Part shown: in pieces, positions 4,597 to 35,557 of the stretch
Numbering within the stretch: the first letter of the stretch is position 1
How the letters are laid out: each line of letters opens with the position of its first letter
Source: Candidatus Cloacimonadota bacterium
GTDB taxonomy: Bacteria; Cloacimonadota; Cloacimonadia; Cloacimonadales; TCS61
Assembly: GCA_018400535.1 (NCBI GenBank)
Contig: JAGYMQ010000100.1
Span: forward strand, 1-40,838
Direction of reading: 5' to 3'
DNA: 40,838 bases
Translations under genes and position numbers: made by a program
The notes under the pieces: model-generated
Seen by the model: the letters and a program-made list of their open reading frames with translations, nothing else
Database searches by the model: none
What the model was told of the DNA's origin: nothing

Positions 4597-4619
4597 AATT
4601 ATTTATCCTTGATCTGTTT

Positions 4620-5032
4620 GCCAAAGAAGATATTAAGCCGAATTCTGTAAATCACCTAACAAGTGATCTAATGTCTATTTCTCTAAGTCGGGCATTGCTG
4701 CACTCGATCGAGTTCGCCTGGCGACCGACTAAAGCTGTCCACCCGAGAATATTCAAGTCGGGCAAACTCATCTATTCTCCTATTTGACATTGCACCGGAT
4801 AAGGTTTTCCTGGCTTCCCGATTCACATCGAGAACCGGTGGTCTCTTACACCGCCATTTCAACTTTTCCTGGCATCTATTTCAGACAAAAAAATCAGTGC
4901 CAGGTAGTTTATTTCTGTGGAACTTGCTATCTGTTGCCAGATCTTCCGGTTAGGAAGTATCCTACCCTTTGGTGTTCGGACTTTCCTCCTGCTCACAAAT
5001 TGCATTCAGGCAGACATTTTATCTTCTTTGGC
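4620..5032 (-). ncRNA. rnpB: RNase P RNA, bacterial type A
   Basis: The minus strand reads the RNase P hallmarks in order: GAGGAAAGTCCG near the 5' end, CAACAGATAGCAA, GGTGTAAGAGACCACCGG, AAACCTTATCCGGTGCAA, CAAATAGG and ACAGAATTCGGCTTA near the 3' end. The ends were set by the P1 helix: 5' GCCAAAGAAGAT (5032-5021) is exactly complementary to 3' ATCTTCTTTGGC (4631-4620). The RNA is therefore about 413 nt, normal for type A. It is the catalytic RNA that matures tRNA 5' ends. It lies 19 nt downstream of one gene and 23 nt upstream of recJ on the same strand. Confidence 0.96.
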
Positions 5033-17755: not shown

Positions 17756-18760
17756 ATGAATAAAAAAATTGCTGTAACTGGAATCAAACCGACTGGAATT
17801 CCACATATTGGAAATTATTTCGGTGCGATCAAACCAGCTCTGGAACTAACAAAAGAATATGATGCTCGCTATTTCATTGCCGATTATCATGCGCTGAATT
17901 CGATCAAAGATCCGAAATTATTACAAGAAATGACTTATGAAGTGGCAGCTACCTGGCTCGCTTGCGGACTCAATCCCAAAAGATCATTGGTCTATCGACA
18001 ATCGCAGGTGCCAGAAACCTTTGATCTCACTTCCATTTTGATGGCTTTCACCCCCAAAGGCTTGATGAACCGCGCCCACGCTTACAAAGCAAAGCTCGCA
18101 GAAAATGAAGAACTAAAACGCGATCCCGATGATGGAGTCAATATGGGATTATTTTCCTATCCTGTTTTGATGGCAGCAGATATTTTACTTTTTGACGCTG
18201 ATGTCGTGCCTGTTGGCAAAGATCAAGCACAACATCTGGAAATGACGGTTGATATTGCGCAAAGCATCAATCACAATTATCAGAAAGAACTTCTAAAAAT
18301 TCCACAAGCGCTCATTCGCAAACAAACTGAGACGGTCATTGGCTTGGATGGAAGGAAGATGAGCAAAAGTTATGACAATACGATCCCTCTTTTTCTGCCA
18401 ACAAAAAAAATGAGAAAGTTAGTGATGAAAATTGTGACAAATTCTCAGACTGTGGAAGAACGGAAAGATCCCGAAACCTGCAATATTTTTGCATTGTATA
18501 AACTTTTTGCCACACCAAAAGAGCAAGAGAAAATGAAAATCCGTTATCGTGCTGGTGGAATGGGCTGGGGTCATGCCAAACAGGCATTATTTGAAAAAAT
18601 GGAAGAAACAATATCTCCTATCCGCAAAAAATATGATGAGATAATTTCTGACAAACAATATATCGATGAGATTCTGGCTGCGGGTTCACAAAAAGCACGA
18701 GAAATAGCAGCAGAAAAAATTCAATCTTTAAAAAACGAGCTGGGTTTGGGAACAGCGTGA
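17756..18760 (+). CDS. trpS: Tryptophanyl-tRNA synthetase
   Basis: TrpRS charges tRNA-Trp. The 334-residue length is normal. The class I signatures are GIPHIGNYFGAIK (HIGN at 17-20) and GRKMSKSYDN (KMSKS at 201-205); the tryptophan-pocket and ATP-binding stretch YPVLMAADILLFDADVVPVG is intact, and DQAQHLEMTVDIA follows. TCAGGAG stands 6 nt before the ATG. It lies 46 nt after the small hypothetical gene and about 107 nt before secG. Confidence 0.96.
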   Translation: MNKKIAVTGIKPTGIPHIGNYFGAIKPALELTKEYDARYFIADYHALNSIKDPKLLQEMTYEVAATWLACGLNPKRSLVYRQSQVPETFDLTSILMAFTPKGLMNRAHAYKAKLAENEELKRDPDDGVNMGLFSYPVLMAADILLFDADVVPVGKDQAQHLEMTVDIAQSINHNYQKELLKIPQALIRKQTETVIGLDGRKMSKSYDNTIPLFLPTKKMRKLVMKIVTNSQTVEERKDPETCNIFALYKLFATPKEQEKMKIRYRAGGMGWGHAKQALFEKMEETISPIRKKYDEIISDKQYIDEILAAGSQKAREIAAEKIQSLKNELGLGTA

Positions 18761-18841: not shown

Positions 18842-18867
18842 GCAAACACTAAAAGAGAGGTGTGATA

Positions 18868-19221
18868 ATGTTCACTTTTTTATTGATCATACATGTAATA
18901 ATTTCAATCGCTTTGATCCTCGTGATCTTGGCGCAATCGAGCAAAGGCGGCGCATTAGAAGGATTGGGCGGCGGAGCAGCTTCCAATATGCTGGGATCGC
19001 AAGGTGCTTCAAAATTCCTGAAAAATACCACTCAGATATTAGCTGCACTTTTTATGCTCAATTGCGTTTTATTGGCATTTCAATTGAAACCTGGATCGAA
19101 ATCTAAAACTTCCAAAGCTGTCGAAATGATGAAAGAAGAAAAAGCAAAAGAGTCTGAAACTTCGCAAGAATTGGAAGAACTACCTGTAGTTCCAGAAGAA
19201 ACTAAAGAAACCAACGAATAA
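18868..19221 (+). CDS. secG: Preprotein translocase subunit SecG
   Basis: SecG is the small accessory subunit of the SecYEG channel in the inner membrane. The 117-residue protein has two membrane helices (about 1-22 and 52-72) around the conserved loop AQSSKGGALEGLGGGAASN, then a charged Glu/Lys-rich tail of about 40 residues, longer than in E. coli. I chose the ATG at 18868, which has AGAGAGG 7 nt upstream; a GTG at 18862 would overlap that spacing. The tRNA-Leu gene begins 10 nt after the stop codon, and a terminator follows both, so they form one transcription unit. Confidence 0.95.
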   Translation: MFTFLLIIHVIISIALILVILAQSSKGGALEGLGGGAASNMLGSQGASKFLKNTTQILAALFMLNCVLLAFQLKPGSKSKTSKAVEMMKEEKAKESETSQELEELPVVPEETKETNE

Positions 19222-19231
19222 CAAATTGAAA

Positions 19232-19320
19232 GCAGAAGTGGTGGAATTGGCAGACACGCAAGACTAAGGATCTTGTGCCCTTTTTTGGGTGTGCGGGTTC
19301 AAATCCCGCCTTCTGCACCA
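19232..19320 (+). tRNA. tRNA-Leu, anticodon AAG, CCA encoded
   Basis: The acceptor stem GCAGAAG/CTTCTGC, D stem GTG/CAC, anticodon stem CAAGA/TCTTG, long variable arm with CCC/GGG, T stem GCGGG/CCCGC, discriminator A and encoded CCA make a complete type II tRNA. The 7-base anticodon loop is CTAAGGA with U33 in place, so positions 34-36 (19266-19268) read AAG and G37 follows, as in CUN-decoding tRNA-Leu. An A at position 34 is rare in bacteria outside tRNA-Arg(ACG) and would normally be deaminated to inosine by TadA. It follows secG, the place of leuU(GAG) in E. coli. Confidence 0.95.
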
Positions 19321-19326
19321 GATCTT

Positions 19327-19352
19327 AAAGCCGATCAAATATCGGCTTTTTT
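19327..19352 (+). terminator. Intrinsic terminator after tRNA-Leu
   Basis: AAAGCCGAT and ATCGGCTTT pair around a CAAAT loop and are followed by a T-run (TTTTTT with the end of the stem). It lies 6 nt after the tRNA CCA and closes the secG/tRNA-Leu unit. Confidence 0.9.
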
Positions 19353-19636: not shown

Positions 19637-22600
19637 ATGAAAAAGAATTATCTGTTTTTTTTAATACTATTTTGTTTTGCATCGCTTTGGTCAGAATGGA
19701 CGGTTGTGCAAACTTTCACAATACCAGGAAAAGCTTCAGGCCTTGCCTGGGACGGCACCTATCTCTATTCTGGAATTTATGGATCGAATGGAAGCGATGT
19801 TTATCGTATCGATCCCAATGATGGAACCTATCAATTACAATTTTCTGATCCAGAATTAGATGATACTTATGGTATGACCTATGACGGCAATAATCTCTGG
19901 ATCGGAGATCACCGCACAGGAATATCTGATCCAGCAATCGCTTATAAATATGACATGAGTGGAAATATTATCGATCAATTCAATCTCATCGATCATTATA
20001 TGTCAGGATTGACTTATGATAACGGTGATTTCTGGGCTGCCACCTATTATCCTGATGATCCAGCAATTATTTACAAAGTGGATACTTCCAGCAATATTCT
20101 GCATCAGTTCAATTTTGATCTTCCAGATAATGATGACGAACAGCCCTGGGATATCACTCTGGAAAATGGCGATATGTGGATCGCTGAATACTATGAAAAT
20201 ATGCTGTATAAAGTTGATACTTCCGATGGAACGATCTTGGAATCGCATTCAAGTGAAAACGTAAAACCATCTGGAATCACCTTTGACGGAACTTATCTTT
20301 GGTATGTCGATGGTCCGCTCAATTCGGACGCCACTTTGTATAAAGTTGATCTGAGTGGTGCTGGAACGCCTGCCATTTTGTTAGGTTGGGATGAATACGA
20401 TTTTGGAAATACTGTGATCGGTCAGCCTGCTTCTGTCGATCTCGCAATTTCAAATACAGGAACGGCAGATTTGATCATTGATGAATTGGATTTTTCACTC
20501 GATGAATTTTATTCTGATGTCACTTTGCCGCTCACGATATCCGTCGGCAATAGCGAAGATATCACGATTTTTTTTGATCCAACAAATGTGGGACAATATG
20601 ATGCAACTCTATATATTGATTCGAATGATCCGGTGAATCCCAATGAAGAAGTTTTATTGAGCGGATATGGTATCACAGAAGATCCGCAGATCATGGTCTC
20701 GCCAAACTCTCTGAATTTTGGTAATATCAGAGTTAATGCAACTTCTGGAAAATTTGTTTCTCTCAGCAATCAAGGTTCTGGAACTTTGGAAGTGAATGAG
20801 ATCGAATTTGATATCACACAATTTTATCTTGATCCAACCGTTGAATTACCACTAAATTTGACACCCACAGAAGAAATTGCAATCCGCATCTGGTTCAATC
20901 CCGATGCAGCACAAAATTTTGACGGTGCAATGACAATTCACAGTAATGATCCGATCACACCAATGGTCGATGTTGTCTTAAATGGCGATGGAGATGATTC
21001 GCAATATCCTATCGGTTCGGTTTTGTGGCAACATCAGATCACAACAGGTTATGATAATTCACCCAAAGCGATCGCACAAATTCCAGATGTTACAGAAGAC
21101 GGCATCAATGATGTGATCATCTGTTCTGAAGATCATTTTATTCGTTGCTTCAATGGAAATTCTTCCAACAGCGCTGATATCATCTGGGAAGTTGAAATTC
21201 CGGGAAATGTTTTCGATCACGACTGCATCACGATCATTCCAGACATTGATAATGATGATTATTCTGATCTTGTGATCGGAACAGGTGGCGGGGATAAAGC
21301 CGTGCGAGCAATGTCTGGTAAAACTGGAGAATTATTATGGGCCTATTTCACAAATCAATTTGGCGATGGTGGAACGGTATACCAAGTTGATTCTAAGCGA
21401 GATTTCAATAGCGATGGCATTCGCGATGTTTTGGCAGCGACTGGAGATGATGCAACCGGAACAGGACCTGAACGAACATTCCTGATCGACGGCTCAAATG
21501 GTTCTGTTATCTGGGATTTTGTGGGAAATGGCGGACCAAAATTTTCCTGTATCACGATCGAAGATGTTAATTCTGATAACATACCAGAAGTGCTTTCTGG
21601 TGCTTCCAACTTTAATGAAACAGAAGGACTTGTCTATTGTATTGATGGCGCAAGCGGTTCAGAGATCTGGCAGTTTACGACGGCGGGGAGTTCTGTCTGG
21701 GCGCTTTCCACTATCGACGATGTGAATGGAGACAATATCGATGATGTCGTCGCTGGAGACTTTGCCGGAAACTATTATGCTTTTGATGCTACGAATGGCT
21801 CATCTCTTTACACAGGAAGTTGTGGCGCTTGTATAATCCTGAATCTGGAAAAAATGAATGACGTTAATAATGACGGAAAGTCTGATATTGCCGTAGCACA
21901 CAGCTCAAATACAAATGCGATCGTCTTTGACGGTTTTACTGGACAGACGATCTGGCTGCATCCTGTTGCCGATCAACCCTGGGTTATAGACAAAATCGAA
22001 GATGTAAGCGGAGATGGGATAAACGACCTGATCGTGGGCACTCTTTACAGCAATAATTATGCCTATTTTCTCGATGGAACTGATGGTTCGGAGTTGGGTT
22101 CGCTGCCCGTCGGAACTCCAGTTGATGCTATCGCTGCCATCGAAGATGTTTCCAATGATAATTCCTGGGAAATGGTTCTGGGTGGAAGAGATGGCACTGT
22201 GATGTGCGTTTCTGGTGGACAAGCAGCTTCCACAGGAACATTGCTCGGAGATATTACCTTGATCGGTGGAAATGGAAACGTGGAAAATGCAGAAATATCT
22301 TGTAATGGCTACACAGTTAATCCTGATGCAACCGGCTATTTCGAAATGATTCTTCCCGCTGGGACTTACGATGTTACAGCAGAATGTGACGGCTATCAAC
22401 CGACCACGATAAACAACGTGGAAATAATTTCTGGTCTGATCACCTCAATAAATATTGGGTTGAACTATCTTTATCCACCCGAAAATTTGGAAGCATCGAT
22501 AGATGAAAATAATGTGACCTTGACCTGGGAAGAACCAGCTGCAATTCCAACTTCTTACAAAGTTTACCGCAACGATGAATTTATAGAAGAAGTTACTGAA

Positions 22601-23014
22601 TTGACCCATACGGACATTAATCTTCCAGCGGGGACCTATCAATATTTCGTCACTGCTATGTATAATGATCTGGAATCGGATCCTTCCAACACGATCGATG
22701 TAGCGATCACAGATGCAGATAATCCTGTAATTCCATTAGTTACCAAACTGGTAGGAAATTATCCCAATCCTTTCAATCCCACCACGAATATTAAGTTTTC
22801 CCTTAAAGATGCCGGTGAAGTAAGCCTGGTAATTTACAATGTTAAAGGCAAAAAGGTGAAAACACTCATAAAAGGCAGCCTTGAGCCAGATTTCTATGAT
22901 GTCTTGTGGGATGGTAAAGATGATTCCGGAAAATCTGTTTCCAGCGGAGTTTATTTCTATAAACTCAAAACAGATAAGATTATACAAGTGAAGAAAGCAA
23001 TATTGATTAAGTAA
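19637..23014 (+). CDS. Secreted multidomain protein with FG-GAP-like repeats and C-terminal sorting domain
   Basis: The 1125-residue protein has a signal peptide (1-19, ending FCFASLWS), then propeller-like repeats with GLAWDGTYLYSG and GMTYDGNNLWIG (about 30-235). Two ASPM/SPD-2/Hydin-type beta domains follow (about 245-350 and 355-450, each with FGN...SNDP). A VCBS/FG-GAP-like propeller comes next (about 460-860; IPDVTEDGINDVI, IEDVNSDNIPEVL and similar). A carboxypeptidase-regulatory-like domain (about 875-935), a fibronectin III-like domain (about 945-1030) and a FlgD-like sorting domain beginning VGNYPNPFNPTTNIKFSL (about 1040-1125) complete it. It is probably secreted and surface-attached; no catalytic site is visible. 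A GH18 gene follows after 1 nt. Confidence 0.85.
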   Translation: MKKNYLFFLILFCFASLWSEWTVVQTFTIPGKASGLAWDGTYLYSGIYGSNGSDVYRIDPNDGTYQLQFSDPELDDTYGMTYDGNNLWIGDHRTGISDPAIAYKYDMSGNIIDQFNLIDHYMSGLTYDNGDFWAATYYPDDPAIIYKVDTSSNILHQFNFDLPDNDDEQPWDITLENGDMWIAEYYENMLYKVDTSDGTILESHSSENVKPSGITFDGTYLWYVDGPLNSDATLYKVDLSGAGTPAILLGWDEYDFGNTVIGQPASVDLAISNTGTADLIIDELDFSLDEFYSDVTLPLTISVGNSEDITIFFDPTNVGQYDATLYIDSNDPVNPNEEVLLSGYGITEDPQIMVSPNSLNFGNIRVNATSGKFVSLSNQGSGTLEVNEIEFDITQFYLDPTVELPLNLTPTEEIAIRIWFNPDAAQNFDGAMTIHSNDPITPMVDVVLNGDGDDSQYPIGSVLWQHQITTGYDNSPKAIAQIPDVTEDGINDVIICSEDHFIRCFNGNSSNSADIIWEVEIPGNVFDHDCITIIPDIDNDDYSDLVIGTGGGDKAVRAMSGKTGELLWAYFTNQFGDGGTVYQVDSKRDFNSDGIRDVLAATGDDATGTGPERTFLIDGSNGSVIWDFVGNGGPKFSCITIEDVNSDNIPEVLSGASNFNETEGLVYCIDGASGSEIWQFTTAGSSVWALSTIDDVNGDNIDDVVAGDFAGNYYAFDATNGSSLYTGSCGACIILNLEKMNDVNNDGKSDIAVAHSSNTNAIVFDGFTGQTIWLHPVADQPWVIDKIEDVSGDGINDLIVGTLYSNNYAYFLDGTDGSELGSLPVGTPVDAIAAIEDVSNDNSWEMVLGGRDGTVMCVSGGQAASTGTLLGDITLIGGNGNVENAEISCNGYTVNPDATGYFEMILPAGTYDVTAECDGYQPTTINNVEIISGLITSINIGLNYLYPPENLEASIDENNVTLTWEEPAAIPTSYKVYRNDEFIEEVTELTHTDINLPAGTYQYFVTAMYNDLESDPSNTIDVAITDADNPVIPLVTKLVGNYPNPFNPTTNIKFSLKDAGEVSLVIYNVKGKKVKTLIKGSLEPDFYDVLWDGKDDSGKSVSSGVYFYKLKTDKIIQVKKAILIK

Positions 23015-34945: not shown

Positions 34946-35557
34946 ATGAGCAAGAATGCAAAACGTGGTTGTCTGATCGCAGCAATTGTCATTATCATCG
35001 TGGCTGTGATCATTATCGCCAGTATCTCTGGAACTTATAATAAAATGATCACTTATGAAGAAAATGTGAAGGAAAAATGGAGTCAGGTGGAAAATGTCTA
35101 TCAGCGGCGTTATGATCTTATTCCCAATTTGGTAGAAACAGTGAAAGGCTATGCTGAACATGAGCAGGAAACTTTTAAAGCGGTTACTGAAGCGAGAGCA
35201 AAAGCAGGTGGAACTTTCAATATTTCTGAAGAAGTTCTGAATGATCCAGCAATGTTCCAGAAATTTCAACAAGCTCAATCTTCTTTGGGAGGAGCATTGC
35301 AGCGTTTGATGGTCGTGATGGAACGCTATCCCGATCTGAAAGCGAACCAGAATTTCCTCTCTCTGCAAGACCAATTGGAAGGAACTGAAAACAGAATCGC
35401 TGTCGAGAGAAAACGCTTTAATCAAGCAGCACGCCAATTCAATACTTTTATCAAGAAATTCCCGCAAGTGATGCTGGCAAATATGTTCGGCTTTAGCGAA
35501 AAGCAATATTTCAAATCTACTGAAGGCGCAGAAGAAGCACCAAAAGTGGAGTTTTAA
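34946..35557 (+). CDS. LemA family membrane protein
   Basis: LemA proteins are membrane-anchored helical-bundle proteins of unsettled function. The 203-residue product has a signal-anchor helix (about 8-31, IAAIVIIIVAVIIIAS) and then the family core: MITYEENVKEKWSQVENVYQ, RRYDLIPNLVETVKGYAEHE, EARAKA, NQNFLSLQDQLEGTENRIAV and FNTFIKKFPQVMLANMFGF. Length is usual. CGGAGG precedes the ATG. Families with LemA often have a TPM-domain protein next to them; none is here. Confidence 0.93.
   Translation: MSKNAKRGCLIAAIVIIIVAVIIIASISGTYNKMITYEENVKEKWSQVENVYQRRYDLIPNLVETVKGYAEHEQETFKAVTEARAKAGGTFNISEEVLNDPAMFQKFQQAQSSLGGALQRLMVVMERYPDLKANQNFLSLQDQLEGTENRIAVERKRFNQAARQFNTFIKKFPQVMLANMFGFSEKQYFKSTEGAEEAPKVEF

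Follow-up and report, generated by a model that had tools for sequence, protein, structure and literature searches.

A tRNA-Leu(AAG) gene directly downstream of secG

The window, by which we mean the whole 40,838-nucleotide stretch of DNA that was analyzed, carries a complete tRNA-Leu(AAG) gene with an encoded CCA on the forward strand at positions 19,232–19,320, and the same gene is found throughout the Cloacimonadota, the phylum of uncultured bacteria to which this genome belongs. ARAGORN places the anticodon at tRNA position 35, and Rfam RF00005 matches positions 19,232–19,317 with a score of 57.1 bits (E = 7e-10). The anticodon AAG occupies positions 19,266–19,268 within the loop CUAAGGA, A34 being base 19,266, and the anticodon arm (CAAGA-CUAAGGA-UCUUG) extends from 19,259 to 19,275, all on the forward strand. 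The initial annotation had read a complete tRNA-Leu with AAG at positions 34–36, a reading confirmed by both programs and by the sequence. The acceptor stem comprises 7 bp (GCAGAAG/CTTCTGC), the discriminator is A73, and the variable arm of the class II cloverleaf is long, features that together with the leucine anticodon assign the gene to tRNA-Leu. The minimum structure from plain RNA folding was not the cloverleaf, as is common for tRNAs.

The gene begins 10 bp after the end of secG (18,862–19,221, forward strand; TIGR00810, 73 bits against a cut-off of 30.9), which is single-copy in this genome and is itself preceded by trpS, encoding tryptophan–tRNA ligase (17,756–18,760, forward strand; TIGR00233, 302 bits). 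On the 3′ side of the tRNA gene, a consensus scan revealed a terminator-like hairpin followed by a T run (19,327–19,349, forward strand), the function of which is only presumed. In E. coli, a tRNA-Leu with a GAG sequence lies 14 bp 3′ of secG, and the proposal that the gene occupies the position of leuU is upheld by this comparison together with the TIGR00810 assignment. Elsewhere, the window encodes an 1125-residue protein (19,637–23,014) that has choice-of-anchor D domains and scores above the cut-off for a T9SS-type sorting tail, a class A RNase P RNA on the reverse strand (4619–5029, 237.9 bits), and a tRNA-Thr(TGT)-Tyr-Gly(TCC)-Thr(GGT) cluster 3′ of cysS, just before the contig end (40,419–40,748).

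The genome as a whole gave 38 RF00005 matches. At the loci retrieved, ARAGORN resolved 36 different tRNAs, and the anticodon loops still visible in the two matches truncated by contig ends identify both as Met(CAT). Five leucine tRNAs are present (AAG, CAG, TAG, CAA, and TAA), and neither RF00005 nor ARAGORN detected a tRNA-Leu(GAG) in this assembly of 146 contigs, in keeping with the AAG gene replacing it. Because the assembly is 95.7% complete, this absence is weak evidence when taken alone. For valine, only Val(TAC) was found, and the draft assembly may lack some tRNAs. An Arg(TCG) gene is present besides Arg(ACG), even though inosine in the latter would already read CGA.

Distribution of A34 tRNA-Leu in Cloacimonadota and other bacteria

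A survey of 125 Cloacimonadota genomes, 71 of them near-complete, with a motif pattern that left positions 27–32 free detected the motif AGACTAAGG in about 95 of the 125. Among the near-complete genomes, 66 of 71 carry Leu(AAG), and in two further genomes of the phylum a contig end truncates the motif. Five near-complete genomes (G015, G039, G074, G090, and G115) have neither the motif nor secG. Because secG is elsewhere adjacent to the tRNA, the locus falls in an assembly gap in all five; a true loss of the gene was rejected on these grounds. Coordinates were compared in nine Cloacimonadota (G001, G055, G061, G084, G104, G107, G112, G121, and G124), and every one has secG next to the tRNA. 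In two genomes, tRNA-Leu(AAG) is present as two identical tandem copies, 126 bp apart in one (G051, L125) and 505 bp apart in the other (G059, L126).

The matching search for GAG across the 125 genomes returned chance-level matches and a single true tRNA-Leu(GAG), in G104. It lies on a 4.6-kb contig and lacks an encoded CCA, which nearly all complete Cloacimonadota leucine tRNAs seen do encode, and G104 has the AAG gene elsewhere. We therefore set aside the view that it is native to G104, and it is likely, if not proven, to be foreign. Leu(AAG) is thus a phylum-wide, well-supported lineage trait, as the initial annotation had suspected, with relatives that do not carry GAG at this locus, and the only GAG gene found sits on one stray contig, in agreement with replacement of Leu(GAG) by the AAG gene.

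These data also bear on whether the A at 19,266 might reflect a sequencing or assembly error, or the gene might have decayed while an ordinary Leu(GAG) persists at another locus. The draft state of the assembly (146 contigs, 95.7% complete) lends this some initial plausibility. The recurrence of this loop in nearly every Cloacimonadota genome excludes a base-call error, and the intact scores in both ARAGORN and Rfam speak against a decayed copy. With the same loop in some 95 genomes and near-complete members devoid of GAG save on the one contig, the phylum survey already refutes this explanation, to which we attach a vanishingly small probability.

Outside the phylum, a strict Leu(AAG) pattern applied to one genome per species gave at least 117 stretches. 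The pattern fixed the anticodon arm, and the arm's conservation in lineages other than Cloacimonadota and Deferribacterota is therefore in part built in. Among the matches listed are Deferribacterota, Hydrogenedentota, Sumerlaeota, Nannocystaceae and other myxobacteria, Fibrobacter, candidate phylum UBP6, Clostridia including Pumilibacter, and Mycoplasmopsis, although metagenome bins can carry a wrong lineage label, and one "Bacteroidales" match resembles a Cloacimonadota contig. ARAGORN confirmed Leu(aag) in nearly all of the listed stretches beyond Cloacimonadota. When 30 such genomes were searched with a pattern that admitted either A34 or G34, each yielded an A34 tRNA and none a G34 match resembling tRNA-Leu. 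The Deferribacterota divide into 24 genomes with AAG, 23 with GAG, and 4 with neither, and no genome combines the two; one apparent exception (G172) was rejected, as its GAG-like match is not a tRNA. Eight viral contigs from IMG/VR (L085–L092) also carry tRNA-Leu(AAG), some together with other leucine tRNAs and Arg(ACG).

The view in the initial annotation that A34 tRNA-Leu is known only from a few lineages such as some lactic acid bacteria does not hold, given at least seven other lineages found here. A review places Leu(AAG) in Leuconostocaceae and some Firmicutes (PMC8007984), and a 2026 GtRNAdb survey in PNAS Nexus assigned nearly all bacterial Leu(AAG) genes to Bacilli, with Mycoplasma and Prochlorococcus in addition (PMC13249217); it does not name Cloacimonadota or most of the other phyla found here. 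We found no published report of Leu(AAG) in these phyla in a literature search of incomplete coverage, so earlier reports are possible. What is new is the much wider range; the tRNA-Leu(IAG) mechanism is already known from Oenococcus and Streptococcus.

Ancestry of the gene and its anticodon arm

The E. coli leuU gene resembles the gene described here in lying directly 3′ of secG, in the codons CUU and CUC, and in its body, whereas its wobble base is G rather than A and its arm is CUACC-UUGAGGU-GGUAG. The orthology to leuU is seen in position and body and not in the GAG anticodon or arm. In Cloacimonadota and Deferribacterota, the two sets unbiased for the arm, the Leu(AAG) stem ends in G-A/U-C and the loop is CUAAGGA, as opposed to a stem end of U-C/G-G and a loop UUGAGGG in Deferribacterota Leu(GAG). 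The whole arm differs, so the change is more than a point mutation of the wobble base. The core of the arm is near those of tRNA-Arg(ACG) and unlike those of Leu(GAG); within this genome, the loops of Leu(AAG) and Arg(ACG) (CUAAGGA and UUACGGA) differ only at positions 32 and 35, and A38 is present in all Arg(ACG) arms compared.

For the remainder of the molecule, with the arm and variable loop left out, the Leu(AAG) body is identical to Deferribacterota Leu(GAG) at 51 and 49 of 55 positions and to the other leucine isoacceptors of its own genome at 44–47 of 55, in a comparison of few sequences by pairwise identities rather than a tree. Since the body is nearest Leu(GAG) and the gene keeps its position at secG, the evidence favors descent from leuU with a rewritten anticodon arm. 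A different origin, with the same function, would be duplication of another leucine isoacceptor (UAG or CAG) followed by an anticodon change and loss of Leu(GAG). The arm itself speaks for such a history, as it is nearer to Leu(UAG) (11–14 of 17 positions) than to Leu(GAG) (8 of 17), and in one Deferribacterota genome (G164) the Leu(AAG) arm matches that genome's own Leu(CAG) at 15 of 17. Set against this are the body, nearest Deferribacterota Leu(GAG), and the location 3′ of secG as in E. coli, and we regard an isoacceptor origin as unlikely, though it deserves consideration. Conversion of the arm alone is possible, and remodelling of leuU and an isoacceptor origin can be mixed.

TadA and the decoding of CUC

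Codons were counted in long open frames taken as genes, without annotation. CUC makes up 9.8% of the 12,045 leucine codons in this genome, and C/(C+T) for CUY is 0.36, in line with the other four-fold boxes (0.27–0.42, with Arg at 0.52). Across the Cloacimonadota, the CUC share of leucine codons is 5–29%. It reaches 24–29% in the GC-rich G029, G055, and G024, where CUC accounts for 0.69–0.72 of CUY, and it is the second commonest leucine codon in GC-rich members. In G001, G005, and G051, CUC is used less than the C-ending codons of most other boxes, and the Val box (GUC) behaves alike. Given this usage, CUC is very probably among the codons that the tRNA reads, and I34 is the likely means. The GC-rich members cannot be reconciled with a tRNA restricted to CUU, and require either I34 or help from tRNA-Leu(UAG).

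The own Leu(AAG) gene encodes A34 preceded by U33, the box has no G34 isoacceptor, and the genome encodes TadA. The tadA gene (positions 35,314–35,754 of contig C68 of this genome, G000) specifies a protein of 148–153 residues with intact HAE and PCxxC motifs; it scores 129 bits against NF008113, under the curated cut-off of 150, with other families far lower. TadA was also found in the five further Cloacimonadota genomes searched. At the threshold used, no match to TadA was obtained in some small or fragmentary genomes with A34 tRNA-Leu or in Mycoplasmopsis, and I34 should therefore not be assumed for every A34-Leu lineage.

We aligned TadA from A34-Leu and G34-Leu lineages with the proteins of E. 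coli, S. aureus, B. subtilis, Aquifex, and S. pyogenes; the E. coli and S. aureus sequences used agree with PDB alignments. No position in this alignment separates the two groups of lineages. Residue 111 (E. coli numbering) is A, F, N, or S in many A34-Leu lineages and T or G in E. coli, S. aureus, and B. subtilis, but was rejected as a signature: GAG-bearing Deferribacterota can have F111 as well, and some A34-Leu lineages have G111. The S. pyogenes enzyme deaminates tRNA-Leu(AAG) and the E. coli enzyme does not (PMC11472039), so acceptance of this tRNA by Cloacimonadota TadA is not automatic. The initial annotation had argued that TadA would need a widened substrate range; the need stands, for an enzyme able to accept UAAG, and the widening may be surmised from the same study (PMC11472039), whereas comparison of the enzymes gave no residue that marks it.

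Some bacterial A34 tRNAs are reported to be unmodified (PMC8266599), and the tRNA might likewise retain A34, reading CUU and leaving CUC to A34-C pairing or to superwobbling by tRNA-Leu(UAG). The presence of tRNA-Leu(UAG) in this genome and the relatively low use of CUC in some members would be compatible with this. It sits poorly with a TadA that is present and intact in six of six Cloacimonadota genomes examined, with the rank of CUC as second commonest leucine codon in GC-rich members, and with a loop in which U33, G36, G37, and A38 are retained, matching the tRNA-Arg(ACG) of this genome, a TadA substrate, and we consider it improbable. Leu(AAG) shares A34, U33, G36, and A38 with this canonical substrate, and in this genome also G37 and the G-A/U-C stem end, and differs in having A35 rather than C35 and in being a class II leucine tRNA. 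Since the rewritten arm also resembles Leu(UAG), its likeness to Arg(ACG) is not proof of recognition by TadA.

The reading that we hold with considerable confidence is that Leu(AAG) is the functional CUU- and CUC-reading leucine tRNA of Cloacimonadota, an orthologue of leuU with A34 deaminated to I34 by TadA. In this scheme, an A34-type anticodon arm would have taken the place of the G34-type arm of leuU. TadA, the gene for which lies elsewhere in the genome, would convert A34 to inosine, and the resulting tRNA-Leu(IAG) would read CUU and CUC and could read CUA, which is also covered by tRNA-Leu(UAG). Both the deamination and the decoding are what we infer from the genes. The nearest precedents are Oenococcus oeni and Streptococcus, for which tRNA-Leu(IAG) has been demonstrated, with TadA forming I34 in Streptococcus tRNA-Leu(AAG) (PMC11472039, PMC13249217). 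In Lactobacillales and Oenococcus, as here, the A34 tRNA replaces Leu(GAG), never standing alongside it, and TadA and tRNA-Arg(ACG) are present (PMC13249217, PMC11472039, PMC8007984); the Cloacimonadota differ in being distant from these bacteria, in having the trait fixed phylum-wide, and in that the trait is read here from genomes.

Linkage of secG to tRNA-Leu is common to Cloacimonadota, Sumerlaeota, a deltaproteobacterial, myxobacterium-like bin, and E. coli. In the Cloacimonadota sister family f13, the order is secG - tRNA-Leu(AAG) - tRNA-Arg(ACG), with the tRNAs 11–66 bp apart in eight genomes (L128, L130, and L132–L137), placing the two likely TadA substrates together 3′ of secG. The Sumerlaeota locus (L481) reads secG - Leu(AAG) - ORF - Ser(TGA) - Ser(GCT) - Arg(ACG) - tadA - Ser(CGA) - Ser(GGA), and that of the myxobacterium-like bin (L482/L177) reads secG - Leu(AAG) - serS - Ser - Ser - Arg(ACG) - tadA - Ser - Ser. 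Further loci from deltaproteobacterial bins (L183 and L214) have Leu(AAG), Arg(ACG), tRNA-Ser genes, and tadA in one cluster. Clustering of A34 tRNAs with tadA fits a shared function, but the placement of tadA beside tRNA-Ser and tRNA-Arg genes may date far back and be shared by GAG species. A more far-reaching idea, which we advance as doubtful, is that an A34 tRNA-Leu read as IAG is old and widespread in bacteria, with its gene in an ancient cluster secG - tRNA-Leu(AAG) - serS - tRNA-Ser - tRNA-Arg(ACG) - tadA. Were this so, several lineages would have had a TadA that acts on two tRNAs since early times, and the Arg-only E. coli enzyme would be one outcome of several.

Wobble inosine in bacteria is usually ascribed to tRNA-Arg(ACG) alone, with the exception of lactic acid bacteria, and the step from one to several inosine tRNAs is usually discussed for eukaryotes. 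If inosine in tRNA-Leu is fixed in whole phyla, that step would have been taken repeatedly in bacteria with a plain TadA, and the Deferribacterota, with 24 AAG and 23 GAG genomes, would offer a natural comparison for the widening of the TadA range.
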